DNA of 64,000 nucleotides from NCBI GenBank assembly GCA_010405405.1, contig MU004230.1:2873744-2937743 (forward strand), given 5' to 3'. A model generated the notes under the pieces. That model was given only the letters and a program-made list of their open reading frames with translations. It was not told the DNA's origin and did no database searches. Of this stretch, positions 11,124-21,107 are shown one piece after another. The position numbers and the translations under genes were made by a program. The DNA comes from Microthyrium microscopicum (Eukaryota; Ascomycota; Dothideomycetes; Microthyriales; Microthyriaceae). How positions within the stretch are numbered: the first letter of the stretch is position 1; each line of letters opens with the position of its first letter.

Positions 11124-13076
11124 ATGGCGTCGCCATCTTCTGAGTCGGTATTTTCTGAGGAGAGCTCGAATTCTCTGTTTGGCCTCGGTGCCGCGGATTT
11201 GTTGAGGAATCGGGTCTATATCCAGGTGCTTGGATCAAAGTACATGTATCCGGCTGCGCGAAAACCTGAATATTTCAACACCGAATTTGCAGCCAACTCA
11301 AACCAAACTACTGGAGTAGAGTTCGTTCTGAGACCGCCAACCATTACCGATGAGAATGAGTTGAAGACCTTATCAGCCACAGTATACCGGCAATGGCTGA
11401 AAAAGCTCGAAACTTCGGCTTCAATGTTGGGCTGTCCAGAGATCCAGTTTGACGAGAAATTCAATTGTTTTGTTCTGTTCCTTCCTGGTCCTGAGGATCT
11501 TGTGCCTGACCTGGGCCTGGTTGCCGCATTGGATATCATCGAAAGTATTATTCTGGCTGAATGTGTTGCGAAACATCTCACAGAAGGAGGAGACGACAGA
11601 CTTCATCTTGATCCAGATACAGGAGTAAACAAGTACTTTTGCCCACCACGACCAGTACCCGATGAGACAATTCAAAGAAGTTCTTGTACTTGTTCTGCGC
11701 CTTCGAGATGTGGTTTTGTGACTGCATGCAACCTTTTGCAACAAATCTGGCTTGGTGCAATCGATTTCGACGATGCTTGCGAGGATGTTCGGACGAAAAT
11801 GAAAAGAGCTTTGAGACTGGAAACGCCGTCTTACGAAGTCATACTTCATCCATCTGGCTCCGATGCCGAGTTGCTGCCACTAGCTTATGCGCTTTCCAAG
11901 GCCAGGGCTATAGGGTGTAGTAATATTGTCAATATCGTTGTCGCCGCGGGAGAAGTAGGCTCGGGAACAGCAGCGGCAGCAGGAGGTTTGCATTTCAATG
12001 AGTATGTGCCAAGTGGAAGACTGGTCAAATCTGGCGAGAGAGTCACTGGGTTTCCAACAAATACTGTGGTTATAGACATTCCACCGCGAACATCCACTGG
12101 CTGTCTTGTGTTCAATTACGATAACGAGTTAAAGGAGAGGGTCGAAGCTGCCTGCAAAAGCTATTCCAACCCATTTTTTGTGATCCACGCAGTCGATGGT
12201 TCCAAAACTGGTCTGCGGCTGCCGAGCCAGTCGGTACTGGATGCTCTGCGGCAGCGATTAAAGGAGCGGCTTTTGGTGGTATTGGATGCTTGTCAAGGCC
12301 GGAGCGATGGCCAAGAGCTGGATTGGTATCTGAGTCGGGAGGCAATGGTTCTCGTAACGGCAAGCAAGTTTTTCGGGGCACCTGGATTCTGCGGTGCCGT
12401 GTTAGTACCGCAAGAGATATCTCTGCATCTGGAAACTTACAAACTGGATGTTTCTGGCCTGGGGGATTATATTACAAAGTATGAGATTGCGCATTCTCTA
12501 CCCAGGCTCCGCCACAGCCTTCCCGAAGGGCCAAAAAACATTGGACTCCTTCTTCGCTGGGCATGTGGTGTGACTGAGATGGAACGGTTTACAGAGATGG
12601 GTAGCGCAGCTCGCCATGTCATTAGGCAATGGGTCGAGGTCGTTGAGCGCCAAGTTAAGAAGCGAAACCCCTATCTGGAGTTGCTCGACAACCAGCAGAG
12701 GCAGCCCAAAACAAGGCGCGACGTGACCCGTCTGGGAGGCTACAATTCAGTTATTTCAATCAAAATTCTAGGGCCAGATGGAACTCACTACCTTGACACA
12801 GCGAAACTACGCCGCATCCACCAGCTGTTGACAATCGACGCCTCCCGCCTCCTCCCTGAGGACACCCCGCCCGATGATATACAGAAGGTTATAGTACAGT
12901 GCTATGTTGGTCAGCCAGTGAATCTTGGAAAATTCGGGGTATTACGGATGGCCATGGGTGCTCCGCTCGCGTGCGATTTGGCAATTGATATGGATCGGTT
13001 TGAGGTCGTGGTAAGGAAGGATGAACAAGTGCTTGATAAAATGATGGTTCTCGCTAAATATTATGAGAGAATATAA
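11124..13076 (+). CDS. Fold-type-I PLP-dependent enzyme of unknown substrate
   Basis: A single exon of 650 residues from the ATG at 11124 (context TACCATGGC). The N-terminal 200 residues are unfamiliar. The middle looks like an aminotransferase class V or group II decarboxylase fold: HPSGSDAELLPL, a glycine-rich VVAAGEVGSGTAAAAGGLHF, LVVLDACQGRSD (the acidic residue expected to touch the pyridine nitrogen), then VTASKFFGAPGFCGAVLVP, where Lys415 is the probable Schiff-base lysine. The C-terminal small domain carries a GGYNSVISIKI stretch. Such proteins act as transaminases, desulfurases or decarboxylases; the sequence does not tell which. No targeting peptide is visible. The single exon contrasts with its multi-exon neighbours but is not evidence of transfer by itself. 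Confidence 0.8.
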   Translation: MASPSSESVFSEESSNSLFGLGAADLLRNRVYIQVLGSKYMYPAARKPEYFNTEFAANSNQTTGVEFVLRPPTITDENELKTLSATVYRQWLKKLETSASMLGCPEIQFDEKFNCFVLFLPGPEDLVPDLGLVAALDIIESIILAECVAKHLTEGGDDRLHLDPDTGVNKYFCPPRPVPDETIQRSSCTCSAPSRCGFVTACNLLQQIWLGAIDFDDACEDVRTKMKRALRLETPSYEVILHPSGSDAELLPLAYALSKARAIGCSNIVNIVVAAGEVGSGTAAAAGGLHFNEYVPSGRLVKSGERVTGFPTNTVVIDIPPRTSTGCLVFNYDNELKERVEAACKSYSNPFFVIHAVDGSKTGLRLPSQSVLDALRQRLKERLLVVLDACQGRSDGQELDWYLSREAMVLVTASKFFGAPGFCGAVLVPQEISLHLETYKLDVSGLGDYITKYEIAHSLPRLRHSLPEGPKNIGLLLRWACGVTEMERFTEMGSAARHVIRQWVEVVERQVKKRNPYLELLDNQQRQPKTRRDVTRLGGYNSVISIKILGPDGTHYLDTAKLRRIHQLLTIDASRLLPEDTPPDDIQKVIVQCYVGQPVNLGKFGVLRMAMGAPLACDLAIDMDRFEVVVRKDEQVLDKMMVLAKYYERI

Positions 13077-14037: not shown

Positions 14038-15000
14038 GATTTTTGGTCTATTTCTTCGAAACAACTTCACGGATACAGTTGAGCTTCATCTTAATAGCCA
14101 GCTCCGCTTCATATTCACGTCGCTGCATGTCGGATAGTCTCACTCTCGTCCCAAGGTATGACATCGCTAGTCTCATTTTCAGCACACTGCGTGCTCAAAA
14201 TCCGCTCAAATTCGCGTTTTGCACCTTCTGCCCTAATAACTGACTTAAATATCAGGCTGAGATAACTCGAAGCTTCATCCACTCTTCAATCTCCAGGATT
14301 GGCCTAACAGCATCTTTCAGCCTCACACAAGCATCCCGATAACCTTCATATTGACCAGTAAGTCTCAATGTCCTGTAGCTCCATAACACTCCATGGCTAG
14401 CATAGAACGCCACGGTGTTACGTGCCCGAAGAACCGTCTATCTCTTTCAGCGCGTGCTGGCTGGCTTCTACAAGATTCTTACATCAACCTTACACTGACG
14501 AATAATTTAGTCAAAGCCTCTGAAGTACGTTTTCCCATTACGCTTTTTTCCAACTGCTTTTCATGATGATCAAACATTATTCCAAAAGAGTCTTCATGCT
14601 TAGCGCCTGTTGACGGTGAAAACAACACAAATGCTATTTTCTGAACAGTCAAAGCTCACAGCTGCTGGTATTTCTACTTACATGGCGACATGCTAATACG
14701 TCTAGGAACAACAATTCTTTCAAATCAAATTGAGATAGAACTCTCTTCCGAATCCAGTTTCGGTTCGCTTTCCTTTCGATCGACTCTGACGACCGGCGGC
14801 ACATCTCCGGACCTGGAATACCACCCCCATCCTCCTCGTCGAATCCTCAATAACAAAAAGTGCAAATAATTCAAGTAGGTACATCCCTCTGGCTCTGGAC
14901 TACTGGAGTCCACAACTTCACAAGGTGGGCGATGATGATAGATTATCGCCTGCAGCGCGCGCGCATCCAATGCGGCTTTGATTAAAGACCACTGCGAGTT
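14038..15000 (-). pseudogene. Decayed multi-exon gene, family not recognised
   Basis: Minus-strand translation shows exon-like pieces that read like one protein: after a CTACTAACTCGCAG acceptor comes WSLIKAALDARALQAIIYHH and PPCEVVDSSSPEPEG, then NWIRKRVLSQFDLKELLFLD, then a piece with KHEDSFGIMFDHHEKQ, then ASQHALKEIDGSSG, YASHGVLWSYRTLRLTGQ and DAVRPILEIEEWMKLR, and finally REYEAELAIKMKLNCIREVV ending at a stop near 14041. Several junctions have usable intron signals (for example GTAAGT...TTCAG near 14660-14640), but at least two joins need a frame change that no splice site explains. I therefore call it a degraded host gene. The true 5' end is unknown and may lie past 15000. Confidence 0.45.
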
Positions 15001-16000: not shown

Positions 16001-16113
16001 ATGCTAGCAGCTACTCCACGAAGTCGTATTCGCGGCGCGAAACTAAACACAGACAGTTGTCGTGGAAAGGTAAGTCAAAGCTTCTTTTCCTTTTGACATT
16101 CCTTTGCAAGTGA

Positions 16114-16212
16114 ATGATGATTTGTTTTATCTTCATCTTCTTTTTGATCCCACTCAGGGTAAGTGAAGGTAAGTTCGGTGGGCTCCATGATATAAAAACG
16201 CAAGAAATCTGA
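16114..16212 (+). ncRNA. Candidate box C/D snoRNA 1 (intron 1)
   Basis: C box AATGATGA ends at 16120, 44 nt after the donor. D box CTGA is at 16209-16212, 75 nt before the acceptor. The spacing is 99 nt. This unit lacks the conserved core of the later ones, so its C and D boxes are not merely copied from them. No convincing terminal stem was found by eye. Confidence 0.45.
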
Positions 16213-16374
16213 AGGTTTTCACAAATTCATCTCATCCATAATCTTGGACTTGATCTGAGCTTTGCTAACATCTTCCAAACTTCTCAGATTCCTAATGCGA
16301 ACTTGTTCCTATCTCGTCTCCAGTCAGTAAAGTTTTATCCCTGCTTCACTCATCCATATCCCATTGCAACTTTC

Positions 16375-16467
16375 ATGATGAATTTTGGATCGTTTCTTTG
16401 CGAACATATCCCTCGCGGATCCGACACGAGGATTCCTGTGTGTTAATGGCATCAATCCCAATTCTGA
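16375..16467 (+). ncRNA. Candidate box C/D snoRNA 2 (intron 2)
   Basis: C box ATGATGA 16375-16381, D box CTGA 16464-16467. Between them lies the core catatccctcgcggat (from 16405). The bases just upstream of the D box (guide position) read ggcatcaatcccaatt and differ from the sister units. Confidence 0.5.
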
Positions 16468-16620
16468 TCGATGGGCATCTGTTTTCCCAGATTCAAATAT
16501 TTTCTGCTTTGCCGCCTGTTGATAACTTCTATAATAGGCCTGTTCACAAAACGAGACGCGGAGATCAAAGCTAAGGTCAGTCGTGCTTACTTATTTCACA
16601 ATTACCCACCCGCGCTCTTT

Positions 16621-16725
16621 ATGATGAAACCATTGTACACATGTGTAGGCGTGCTTCTCTCGAGAGGCTGAAATTGCTTCGCAGCGAACATTTTTGTCCC
16701 ATGGCATATATGTTACCAGTTCTGA
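16621..16725 (+). ncRNA. Candidate box C/D snoRNA 3 (intron 3)
   Basis: C box ATGATGA 16621-16627, D box CTGA 16722-16725. The core is strongly diverged here (tctctcgagagg, then cccatggcata), yet both boxes and their spacing are kept. That favours selection on the boxes. Confidence 0.5.
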
Positions 16726-16876
16726 TCGATATCTTGCCTTTCTGGTCCATCTCGTCCCTTGTACGCGATTTGCTAATTCGTCATCTTCTTCGCAGTGCAA
16801 CACCTTTCCAAGACGAAAGAGTCTATAGGTCAGGCCTCCATTTCGCTCATTTCTCGTAGATCCCGACAGAGAATCT

Positions 16877-16974
16877 CTGATGATTGAACAAACATCTTGA
16901 GTTATTACACGCATATCCCTCACGAACACGACACAAGTTCTTTATGCCATGGCATGAAAATTTGTTCGTTCAGA
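16877..16974 (+). ncRNA. Candidate box C/D snoRNA 4 (intron 4), D box degenerate
   Basis: C box CTGATGAT 16877-16884. At the expected D position the sequence is CAGA (16971-16974) where the sisters have CTGA. The core catatccctcacgaa is present. This copy may be inactive. Confidence 0.3.
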
Positions 16975-17155
16975 TTTCTCATTCTTGTTGCATAGAAGTC
17001 ATCGTAGTGGTACTGGAGAATTCTAATAACCCAACGAATACATGCGTAGGATCAAAAGTTTCTAAGTCGACCTAGAGCTCTACCGTGGATTGAAAAACTA
17101 AGGTCAGTTTTCCATTTCCTTCTCCTTTAAACAGCGATTCCTCAACCTTGTTTCA

Positions 17156-17249
17156 ATGATGAACAAAAAATTTCCTTTTTTGCAAACATATCCCTCGCGG
17201 ATACGACACGAGTTCTTTGTGTTATGGCATAAAAATTCGCACATTCTGA
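17156..17249 (+). ncRNA. Candidate box C/D snoRNA 5 (intron 5)
   Basis: C box AATGATGA ends at 17162, D box CTGA 17246-17249, 94 nt in all. The core runs from 17187. The guide position reads aaaaattcgcacatt. Near the donor cagttttcca and near the branch site tggagaaactg can pair with one bulge, a possible external stem bringing the intron ends together. Confidence 0.5.
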
Positions 17250-17425
17250 TTTCTCGTTTATCTTCCTTTGCCCCAGTCATTCTGGAGAAACTGTGCTAAC
17301 TCGATGGCCACCTGCTTAGGATTGTATGCCTCTCAAGCATCTTAAAGTCCCCACCGTGAACATCAAAGTCAAAGTGAGTTCCTATCTCTTCCTTTTTCTG
17401 TTAACAACACCTCAACCATATTTCC

Positions 17426-17533
17426 ATGATGAACAAAATTCAAAGCTTGTCCTTCTTTGCACGCATATCCCTCGCGGACACAACACGAGTTCTTTGTGCC
17501 ATGGCATAAAATTGAATCCTAATCAATTTCTGA
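17426..17533 (+). ncRNA. Candidate box C/D snoRNA 6 (intron 6)
   Basis: C box ATGATGA 17426-17432, D box CTGA 17530-17533, core from 17464. The guide position reads gaatcctaatcaattt, unlike its neighbours although the flanking core is nearly identical. Confidence 0.5.
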
Positions 17534-17708
17534 CTCTTCGTCTATCTTCCCTGGTCTCAGTCGTTTTGGCGAACTTGGCTAACTCAATGGCTTCCCCGTT
17601 AGGATTGTGTGCCTGCTAATCACCTTGATATTCCTACCGCCATCACGAAGCTAATGTGAGTTCCCCAGTTCTTTCTTCTTCTAGTAGCAGCACTTCAACG
17701 TTGTTTCC

Positions 17709-17817
17709 ATGATGAACCAAAATCCAAAACTTCTTCGTCATTTGCAAGCACATCCCTCGCGGACGCGACACGAGTTCTTTGTGCCATGGCATAAAAATGG
17801 TCCTTATCAAATCCTGA
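17709..17817 (+). ncRNA. Candidate box C/D snoRNA 7 (intron 7)
   Basis: C box ATGATGA 17709-17715, D box CTGA 17814-17817, core from 17749 (cacatccctcgcgga). The guide position reads ggtccttatcaaatc. The acceptor of this intron (TTACTGAC...GAG at 17884) is the weakest of the array. Confidence 0.5.
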
Positions 17818-17884
17818 TGTCTTTCTTTCTATACTTGCATACATGCCCAATGTTTTATGTTTTACTGACTTCTTGCAATTCGAG

Positions 17885-19645
17885 GTATTCCATGACACAA
17901 AAAAGTTGTCCCACACAGTATCATGCACCCTACCAGCTAAACTACCGGCTCCAGGTTTAGTTGCCAGAAAGGATATTAAGGCTTGTAGCTCATCGAGGTC
18001 AAAGGGCCATGCCACATCCACTATGAGCAGAGGATGGTGGCAGCCACTACCATTGAAGGAAGCATGCAATCTGACTTGTCAGTTGCCAATTCAAAGCATC
18101 TGCAATACATGGATACTTTCAATGCTAAAAAAGACTTCGAACATGGATCTCATTTCTTTTGCGATCTTGTTCACCACCTAGTAGGAATCAAATCAAGAGG
18201 ACTCGCATATGATGCCTTCTTCTGATGAGACGACTTATTTTCCCTACACACAATCTTCTCAGCTTGGTTGAAAGTACTGCTAATAGTTCCTCTTGCTTGG
18301 TCCATATCTTGTCCAGTCTCACGGTCACACCTCGATCTATCTAATTTGGATCAACAACATTTATGCTCAAAGTACTACTCATCCTCTTGTATTATACAAA
18401 TCACGCCCAATTGTTTATGCGGAGATTACAGAAGCTGTCATTTTGATCCTAATGAGATTTAAGATTTCATATCTGCGTCAATGATCAACTGTGCTGGAAT
18501 ACCAAAACGGACGCTTAAGCTACAACACTCACGACGCTTTTGAAAAAAAAGTTGCAAAACTGAGAGGTGTCAAGAAGCAAATAATGCTTGCCTGCAGCGG
18601 TCGCATTCTCATTTCTACATTGTCCCGATCTCTTCGTGGAAAAGGTTAAACGCCTCATACAATGAGCAAGCTTTTTGAAAGGAGATGCTTATTGTCTAGG
18701 CCAAGGAGTCCCCTTGCTGGAGACAAGGAAGAGCTGATCATGGGCCTATCCACGAGGCAAGCTTTTATGTACGATGTGCGGGATCCTTGGTTGTTGTATG
18801 CACGTCTTCGTTTGTTTACCCCCTGACTTTCCTCAGGTATCGGTGATGTTAGTAAAAGGGATTTAAAAAATTGTAGGCAATGGTACAACAAGTGTTAGAA
18901 GAAAACCATCGTCAATACAAATCAGAGAGAACTCTTCTCGTTAGTGAAACACAAAGCTTCATCCTGGAGAATCGCCGACTGGCTGTTTCAAAGAGCAAGG
19001 AAATAAATATCTCATGACCCGGCCATGTCTCCTCACAACATCAATGCACTCCGCGAACAAGCTCATTTAACCACCACTAGAACGACGATCATCAAGCTCC
19101 CTGGTCATCCGGATCACCGATCTGTCAGTAAGCAGAAACCGATGAGCAACTTCGTGCCACTCAACACGAAATGTTGTCATTTCTGCGCCCAAGGTTACAC
19201 TCCGTCAAGCTGCATCCACCATGATCAAATCCTTTGCCTAGCTTACCAGCTGTCTATTGGATAATTTGAAGGCCCTGCTCACTCAAGCTATACCTGTTCG
19301 CAGTGGGGAACCTTCATGAGCAGGGCTGTTCCGGTCGAAGAACAACCCAAAGGCTGGCAGATGAAAAAAGTAGAGTACAAATGACAACCTAGGCCGGCAG
19401 ACGTAATATTAAACCAATATGCCGACCGCCCGGTAGGCATACTATCTATTTAAGTAATAACTAGTCCGTGAGCCATTGGGGTTAAGGTGACCATAAAAGC
19501 TTGCCCAATTATTTCCTAACTGCAATATTAATTCTTAAAGGGCGCTATAATATCCCAGCTTTTGGTCAACATCACTAGTTGTTGTCTGTACTTGAAGCAT
19601 CCCACCACTCTTGTTGGAGTCTGTTGTTGCGGTAATAATTTCGAT
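17885..19645. other. Gene-poor stretch
   Basis: About 1.8 kb. A minus-strand open frame over 17885-18069 has a protein-like peptide (WPFDLDELQALISFLA) but no start, partner exon or known motif, and its continuation falls on the snoRNA array. A 10-bp inverted repeat lies at 19272-19326. Otherwise nothing recognised. Confidence 0.35.
19272..19326. repeat. Short inverted repeat (10-bp stem, 35-nt loop)
   Basis: GCCCTGCTCA at 19272-19281 is perfectly repeated inverted as TGAGCAGGGC at 19317-19326. It lies about 320 bp upstream of the aldose epimerase start and could be a hairpin or the remnant of a small element. Confidence 0.4.
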
Positions 19646-21107
19646 ATGGCCCGGCATCACTTGGCCGTTCTTTTTGCATGTCTGGTTTCGCAGACTCTGG
19701 CAAAGTATGATTGGCATGCTCCTCCACCAGCTGGAACAAACGATGCGCCTATACCGGTAGGGCCAGACGGAAAATATACAATTGTCTCGGAGGGAATTCG
19801 AGCTCAGTTCATTCCATATGGCGCCAGCATAACGAACCTTTTCATAAACGACACGCATAACGTGGAAAGAGACATTGTTCTGGGATTCGACAATGCAACT
19901 GCATACACTTTGGATACATCTCATCCTCATCTAGGCGGAGTTCCAGGTACGAGAAATCTGTGGAAGAATGAGTAAAGGGCAGTCGCGCTGACACGTTTGA
20001 TTGAAGGTCGTTATGCGAATCGTATAAAGAACAGGTAACACGATTGGACTACGTTATATGGCTTCGTTAACGATAGTACAGTACATTCACCATCGACGGC
20101 GTAACATCCAAGGTCATACCGAATGAGAACAACGGCGCTGATACTCTTCACGGAGGGCCTGACGGTTGGGACTATGTATGATGCCTGCTTTATGATCAAT
20201 TTCAATACTAATCGAACGCAAAGCGCAACTTTACCGTAGTCAAGCACACCCGTTCGACAATCACCTTCAAAATCGATGATCCAGATGGCAAAGAAGGATT
20301 CCCAGGAGCCGTGACCTCCTACATTCACTATGGACTCTCACCATACCGGTGGCACTTCTACATGAACGCTACCGCGACCAAGGTTACACCCGTCATGCTC
20401 TCATCGCACACGTACTGGAATCTCGACGGTTTCCAAAACCCAAGCACCAATCTCGCACTCAACCACAGCCTCCTATTACCATTTTCTGGCCAGCGTGTCG
20501 ACGTGGATGGCATCCTAATTCCCACGGGAAATATCATTCCAAACAAAATTGGCAGTGTCAACGACTTTTGGACAAAATCCAAGCAACTAGGCGCAGACTT
20601 GACCAAGAAGGAGGCACAAGGAAACTGCGGTACAGGGTGCACTGGCTACGACACTTGCTACCTGGTGAACCGCGAGCAATTTGGCCCCAACTATTTTGCA
20701 CCACTGACTGATGGAGGCGCGTGGTGGGAGGGCGATCCAGTCGCAACAGTCCGAAGTGATTTCAGTGGCATCCAGCTTGATATCTTTTCTGACCAGGATG
20801 CTTTCCAGGTGTACAGCTGCAATGGACAGAACAGTAAGCATGAAATGTGGTCCAAATCACACAAGGCTAATGTGTTATGACAGGTACCATGCCGCTGAAG
20901 AAAACCCAAGGCTTTTTCGGAGCAAACGCTACTTTTCCGCGCGTAGTACCACAATACGGATGTTTTGTGATGGAGGTTGAAGATTGGATTGATGGCATAA
21001 ACAATCCAGAATGGGGACGCGATGCGAAGCAAATTATTGGACCCAAAACTTTGCCATACGAGCTGGAAGCTATCTACTCATTCTCGATAGCAAACAAAAA
21101 GCAGTGA
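19646..21107 (+). CDS. Secreted aldose 1-epimerase (galactose mutarotase family)
   Basis: Five exons (19646-19946, 20007-20034, 20082-20175, 20224-20833, 20884-21107) give 418 residues. The first 19 residues (MARHHLAVLFACLVSQTLA) are a signal peptide. Family motifs: FIPYGASITNL, DIVLGFDN, GGVPGRYANRIKN assembled across introns 1 and 2, TLHGGPDGWDYRNF across intron 3, SSHTYWNLDG, and YELEAIYSF near the end. The His of SSHTYWNL and the Glu of PYELEAIY are the usual acid/base pair. The enzyme interconverts alpha and beta anomers of aldoses; the secreted form would act on sugars outside the cell. Exon 2 is only 28 nt, so automated gene finders may miss it. Cysteines (NCGTGCTGYDTC) fit a secreted, disulfide-bearing protein. 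Confidence 0.92.

Follow-up and report, generated by a model that had tools for sequence, protein, structure and literature searches.

Among the seven proteins scanned from the window (by which we mean the whole 64-kb stretch of DNA that was analyzed), six match Pfam domain models, namely those of a protein kinase, a GEN1-type nuclease, a neutral ceramidase, an HSCB co-chaperone, a CCCH zinc-finger protein, and an aldose epimerase. We take the gene content and the style of the introns to suggest a filamentous ascomycete. Between an open reading frame (ORF) that ends at position 13076 and the aldose-epimerase-like ORF at position 20311, the listed ORFs all fall short of 150 aa, and this interval holds an array of seven predicted introns on the + strand (16070–17884) that are 211–229 nt in length and are separated by micro-exons of 33–54 nt. 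When the window is divided into 16 stretches, its lowest G+C content (0.433) and its most negative GC skew (−0.114) are both found in the 4-kb stretch that contains the array (16001–20000).

The limits of the introns were set from splice signals, and the splice sites are predictions. Both the splice sites and the positional zones used in the tests described later were picked with the C/D boxes in view, the zones being fixed after the real positions were known. A first-pass annotation of the sequence had described seven introns of 215–229 nt; the number of introns is unchanged in our analysis, whereas the lengths had to be corrected (218, 211, 220, 221, 217, 229, and 229 nt from i1 to i7). The range of 33–54 nt given there for the micro-exons agrees with the measured lengths of 39, 38, 33, 53, 54, and 53 nt. 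The features of the array are the following:

16070–16287, + strand: intron i1, 218 nt; box C ATGATGA at 16114–16120, box D CTGA at 16209–16212, branch consensus CTAAC at 16265–16269; homology to the other introns not demonstrable
16288–16326, + strand: micro-exon 2, 39 nt
16327–16537, + strand: intron i2, 211 nt; box C ATGATGA at 16375–16381, box D CTGA at 16464–16467, no CTRAY branch site in range; member of the five-copy family
16538–16575, + strand: micro-exon 3, 38 nt
16576–16795, + strand: intron i3, 220 nt; box C ATGATGA at 16621–16627, box D CTGA at 16722–16725, branch consensus CTAAT; homology to the others weak or absent
16796–16828, + strand: micro-exon 4, 33 nt
16829–17049, + strand: intron i4, 221 nt; degenerate box C CTGATGA at 16877–16883, degenerate box D CAGA at 16971–16974, branch consensus CTAAT; member of the five-copy family, possibly decaying
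17050–17102, + strand: micro-exon 5, 53 nt
17103–17319, + strand: intron i5, 217 nt; box C ATGATGA at 17156–17162, box D CTGA at 17246–17249, branch consensus CTAAC; member of the five-copy family
17188–17234, + strand: conserved core between boxes C and D in i5; the core starts at 16406 in i2, 16913 in i4, 17465 in i6, and 17750 in i7
17320–17373, + strand: micro-exon 6, 54 nt
17374–17602, + strand: intron i6, 229 nt; box C ATGATGA at 17426–17432, box D CTGA at 17530–17533, branch consensus CTAAC; member of the five-copy family
17603–17655, + strand: micro-exon 7, 53 nt
17656–17884, + strand: intron i7, 229 nt; box C ATGATGA at 17709–17715, box D CTGA at 17814–17817, branch consensus CTGAC, acceptor GAG; member of the five-copy family

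In addition to the missing CTRAY motif of i2 and the GAG acceptor of i7, the donors of i2 (GTAAAG), i3 and i5 (GTCAGT), and i4 (GTCAGG) are not ideal. The donors GTCAGT and GTCAGG follow exons that end in AG, and exons that lack a terminal AG are followed by the donor GTGAGT (i6 and i7), with i2 (TCA/GTAAAG) as the exception; we take this complementarity between donor and exon end to reflect compensating pairing with U1.

All seven introns contain an NTGATGA motif (box C), which is exactly ATGATGA in six of them and CTGATGA in i4, and six contain CTGA (box D), which is replaced by CAGA in i4. Box C lies 44–53 nt from the 5′ splice site in all seven introns, and in six of them CTGA starts 82–98 nt past the end of box C (the CAGA of i4 follows after 87 nt), with a spacing of 93–109 nt from box C to box D across the introns. 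Box D ends 67–75 nt before the 3′ splice site (75 nt for the CAGA of i4). A CTRAY motif is present in six introns, and in these the distance from box D to the branch consensus is 45–52 nt, as measured from CAGA in i4. These positions are in line with the first-pass annotation, which had placed RTGATGA approximately 40–60 nt past the donor in six introns and CTGA approximately 90–110 nt further on, with CAGA in the seventh. According to a review, the optimum for the assembly of intronic C/D snoRNPs is approximately 50 nt upstream of the branch point (PMC8162545), and the available text of a survey of Neurospora crassa places the intronic C/D snoRNAs of this fungus mainly 41–60 nt from the 5′ splice site (PMC2780460). 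The placement of the boxes relative to the splice sites and the branch consensus is the best evidence for reading these introns as sources of C/D RNAs.

In dinucleotide shuffles of the individual introns (2,000 each), box C and CTGA both fell within the observed zones in 0–0.15% of cases per intron, compared with six of the seven real introns. A joint scan of both strands of the window for box C, box D, and splice signals gave five matches on the + strand, four of them inside the array, and none on the − strand, against a mean of 0.31 per strand and a largest value of three in 200 shuffles; the scan misses i2, i4, and i7. When the splice signals are disregarded, correctly spaced pairs of box C and CTGA show no enrichment in the window (14 on the + strand and 11 on the − strand, against 10.19 per strand in 200 shuffles). 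Approximately 1.4 kb upstream of the array, an intron-like segment on the + strand (14525–14705) has ATGATGA at 14563, CTGA at 14641, and CTAAT at 14693, and its best overlapping Rfam match is snR61 (E value 0.64, below the gathering score). Because the scan expects 0.31 matches per strand by chance, we do not count this candidate as an eighth snoRNA.

Homology among the seven introns was assessed by a leave-one-out nhmmer analysis, which recovered i2, i4, i5, i6, and i7 with E values from 7.4e-11 to 1.5e-25; i1 gave no hit, and i3 gave E values of 7.6 on the + strand and 1.8 on the − strand. The earlier description of seven homologous introns is therefore too strong, as only i2 and i4–i7 are demonstrably homologous, and the array is better described as a five-member paralogous family accompanied by two snoRNA-like introns (i1 and i3) whose relationship to it is unproven. 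Given that i1 and i3 have their boxes in place though they are not recovered by homology, they provide nearly independent support for C/D RNAs, with the caution that the splice sites were picked knowing the boxes. In pairwise alignments of the segments from box C to box D (z scores from 100 mononucleotide shuffles per pair, to which the common boxes contribute), the ten pairs within i2 and i4–i7 have z scores of 4.8–18.3, i3 has 3.9–5.7 to these five introns, and i1 has 0.8–4.8 to the other introns. A 15-nt stretch across box D (repeat family D14) is common to i3 and i2.

Outside the boxes of the five-copy family, the 5′ flanks exceed a z score of 3 in three of the ten pairs (those among i5–i7) and the 3′ flanks do so in two of the ten. 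Conservation among the copies is concentrated between C and D, and the strongest conserved block is a core of roughly 45 nt that extends from ATATCCCTC to ATGGCATAAAA. A relaxed pattern of the first half of this core has five matches in the window and none in 100 shuffles. The segment preceding box D is variable in the family, and the distance to box D from the ATGGCAT that ends the core varies between 21 and 32 nt, suggesting that box D may be positioned relative to the branch point and not relative to the core. Repeat families D3 and D4 span both exon and intron, which indicates that whole exon–intron units were duplicated, and no additional copy of the intron family above chance was found elsewhere in the 64-kb window.

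No terminal stem is consistent across the seven introns. A stem is present in i2 (p = 0.012) and i4 (p = 0.058), where it is offset by 1–8 nt from the boxes, it is absent in i3, i5, i6, and i7, and in i1 it is at the level of chance (p = 0.185), so that the caveat in the first-pass annotation that no convincing C/D terminal stem could be seen still applies. The two flanks of the same intron pair little better (mean −8.4) than mismatched flanks do (−7.33, SD 2.99); the own flank pair of i4 is the strongest of the 49 cells (−16.3), and external flank stems were dismissed as not convincing in this comparison of own with mismatched flanks. The seven C–D segments do not fold significantly better than their shuffles (z −1.16 to 1.48), and inspection of the alignments by eye revealed no clear motif for internal C′/D′ boxes. 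An 18-nt near-palindrome around CATGGCAT that is able to form a 7-bp hairpin is found in i4–i7 (16941–16958, 17216–17233, 17493–17510, and 17778–17795); the hairpin is present in the best folds of i4–i6 and in the centroid of i7, and at two of its base pairs i4 departs from i6 and i7 in one partner only, so that pairing is preserved.

A check against models of C/D RNAs had been proposed in the first-pass annotation, and it does not assign the array to a known family: no Rfam family matches the window at the gathering score, the lowest E value in the array below that score is 1.1, for a match on the − strand, and snoRNA matches on the + strand are limited to SNORD60 in i1 (E value 9.9). A 15-nt pattern of the core was found at 25 loci in viral contigs, whose exact matches to the core reach at most 20 nt, and we took these loci as chance; a longer pattern had no match, and a distant blastn search of the array against plasmids gave none, so that these searches yielded no relatives of the array. 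Repeat-induced mutation was also considered and rejected, as the indices of the array (TpA/ApT of 0.55 compared with 0.65 for the window and (CpA+TpG)/(ApC+GpT) of 1.43 compared with 1.32) resemble those of the rest of the window and give no sign of this process by the thresholds applied.

When the six micro-exons are joined (270 nt), their three frames contain five, three, and four stops, in line with the claim that the micro-exons do not keep a frame. In the predicted transcript the longest ORF has 64 codons (195 bp), starts with the ATG at 16001, and runs through exons 1–5; it has no Pfam match, and its length is reached in 29% of 500 shuffles of the transcript. The host gene appears to be without an evident protein product.

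To search for targets, we compared the C–D segments with LSU rRNA from three contaminating contigs (L026–L028), an 18S-like sequence (L029), and yeast sequences, the snRNAs being represented by U6 only. L026, L027, and L028 are titled as bacterial MAG contigs, yet they contain eukaryotic LSU rRNA; L029 (NZ_CP050525.1, 1–1764) is deposited as an Acinetobacter baumannii plasmid, is unannotated, carries eukaryotic 18S-like sequence that scores 92.7% against a 219-nt piece of yeast 18S, and is probably an assembly contaminant. For the five-copy family, no standard guide adjoining box D was found against this set of foreign rRNAs and U6, and by this measure the family is apparently an orphan.

The best of the 40 guide–target comparisons is that of i2 with the 18S segment GGTTCCGGGGGGAGTATGGTCGCAAGG, in which 23 of 27 positions are paired (20 Watson–Crick pairs and three GU pairs), and its score is reached in 0.2% of 1,500 shuffles and in 0.33% of 1,500 random stretches of the window. 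We treat this match as a weak lead because it is the best of 40 comparisons and its p value of 0.002 holds for that target alone. In the same register i5, i6, and i7 have more mismatches, and two of the four mismatches of i2 fall at columns that are conserved in most copies. In i1, ten Watson–Crick pairs to the foreign LSU rRNA of L028 lie directly at box D with a one-base overlap, and this match, which is absent among the matches listed for yeast 25S, could be a real guide. Other runs were set aside: those of 12–13 pairs with one GU for i1, i5, and i7 lie 44–88 nt upstream of box D and were obtained against single foreign rRNAs, and the 10-pair runs near box D were judged unconvincing, not only that of i1 with L028 but also those of i3 with L027 (which covers box D itself), of i6 with L029 (at a distance of 6 nt), and of i7 with yeast 18S (at a distance of 8 nt).

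Several other readings of the locus were weighed. If introner-like elements, which are known in Dothideomycetes (PMC4457414), or other introns without a small RNA product had multiplied here, homologous introns of similar length would be expected, as observed; we nevertheless find this very improbable, given that exon sequence is part of what was duplicated (repeat families D3 and D4), that the window has no further copy above chance, that conservation peaks between C and D instead of extending over the whole intron, and that i1 and i3 have boxes without demonstrable homology. Even harder to credit is a coding origin, in which the C–D segments would be repeated exons and the micro-exons intronic sequence, or in which the 64-codon ORF, which crosses four predicted introns, would encode a real protein. 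Two of the six frames of the 61-nt core (+0 and −2) are free of stops in all five copies, and some ORFs begin at ATGATGA; however, a coding signature was not found in the core, where indels are not multiples of three (the spacing between box C and the core does not change in steps of three, and an insertion of 4 nt is present in i2), the substitutions among i4–i7 are distributed 5, 3, and 3 over the codon positions, and synonymous changes are not in excess in any frame, and for the ORF itself both the frequency of that length in shuffled transcripts and the missing Pfam match argue against a protein.

Two further readings accept that C/D RNAs were or are encoded here. The family could represent a diverged rRNA guide or a snoRNA for pre-rRNA folding, the core of which would pair imperfectly with 18S near the conserved GGGGGGAGTATGGTCGCAAGG, while some of the other introns may be ordinary guides. 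The GGGGGGAGTATGGTCGCAAGG segment is the region of the yeast snR41 site. The 23 of 27 pairs of i2, rare among shuffles, and the ten pairs of i1 at box D would fit such a guide, but we consider it improbable in light of the number of comparisons made, the poorer pairing of i5–i7, the two mismatches of i2 at conserved columns, and the foreign origin of the rRNA matched by i1, and also because the guides listed for N. crassa pair without mismatches in nearly all of the rows consulted. The chief rival, which is somewhat less improbable though still unlikely, is a decayed snoRNA locus, where a once functional C/D unit was duplicated in tandem and most copies are now pseudogenes that are spliced and degraded. 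Most copies do lack a terminal stem, i4 has a degenerate box C, box D, and donor, and snoRNA pseudogenes are said to be marked by unstable terminal stems and by mutations in the boxes (PMC12309372, available text), so that some copies, i4 first, may be decaying. General decay is at odds with an exact box C in six of the seven introns and CTGA in six of the seven despite diverged flanks, with conservation that is focused between the boxes, and with a distance from box D to the branch consensus that is held at 45–52 nt in six of the seven.

We therefore favor the reading of the locus as a UHG-type host gene for functional C/D snoRNAs, which is probably correct because the boxes, the C–D spacing, the distances to splice sites and branch consensus, the exons without evident coding use, and the conservation between C and D all fit. 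A box C/D snoRNA host gene had been put forward in the first-pass annotation as well, and this part of it is supported, whereas its seven paralogs shrink to five plus i1 and i3. On the strength of the sequence, the five tandem introns i2 and i4–i7 are best read as copies of one apparently orphan box C/D RNA. The host would be transcribed on the + strand, and its introns would be released by splicing; the core proteins of C/D RNAs would assemble on both boxes of an RNA located approximately 50 nt upstream of the branch point, and debranching followed by exonuclease trimming would leave a small RNA of approximately 95–115 nt. Each intron would carry one C/D-type RNA (93–109 nt from box C to box D), with i2 and i4–i7 as tandem duplicates of one exon–intron unit that have retained the core of approximately 45 nt. 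This core would be the likeliest functional part, with a role in pairing or in protein binding, and in appearance it is unlike an ordinary guide for rRNA methylation.

Intron-hosted C/D clusters are known in fungi, as had been stated at the outset, from the UHG-like hosts of N. crassa, where the available text describes five snoRNA clusters (I–V) in hosts with short ORFs and places 45 of 55 C/D snoRNAs in introns (PMC2780460). Most fungal snoRNAs are described as independent units (PMC12309372, available text), which counts against an intronic host. Like the UHG/gas5-like hosts of N. crassa, the gene considered here would be multi-exonic, with a short ORF (159–267 bp there and 195 bp here) and intronic C/D RNAs; unlike the members of those clusters, which are different RNAs that mostly have predicted rRNA targets, its introns include five copies of one RNA without a recognized target (PMC2780460, available text). 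The host architecture is already known, and the new variation on it would be the arrangement of paralogs in tandem in a filamentous fungus: no such array was evident among the literature matches listed, as judged by titles and the beginnings of abstracts, and the study "The fungal snoRNAome" could contain one.

Tandem snoRNA isoforms, that is, paralogous C/D RNAs within one host transcript, occur in consecutive introns of Drosophila dUHG and in clusters of rice, and these mostly guide rRNA. The array also resembles the SNORD115/SNORD116 and 14q32 arrays, which likewise consist of tandem, intron-hosted paralogous C/D RNAs in a noncoding host and of which SNORD116 is an orphan (PMC8162545 and PMC5748676, available texts). 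It differs from these mammalian arrays in having five copies, compared with at least 28 for SNORD116 (PMC5748676, available text), in its compact introns, and in its probable occurrence in a fungus, and we claim no homology. A tentative and rather doubtful extension is that the array might be a fungal counterpart, by convergence, of the SNORD115/116 arrays, in which a dedicated host would supply several copies of an orphan C/D RNA whose core acts beyond mature rRNA (for example on an mRNA, an snRNA, or a pre-rRNA spacer).

Paralogous orphan C/D tandem arrays are best known from imprinted mammalian loci, which are hard to manipulate. Most snoRNA genes of N. crassa are reported to be singletons, a property that the authors of that survey link to repeat-induced point mutation (PMC2780460, available text), and the array described here, if real, would contrast with them. 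An array of this kind in a transformable fungus would open the origin of these arrays and the role of orphan C/D RNAs to experimental test.
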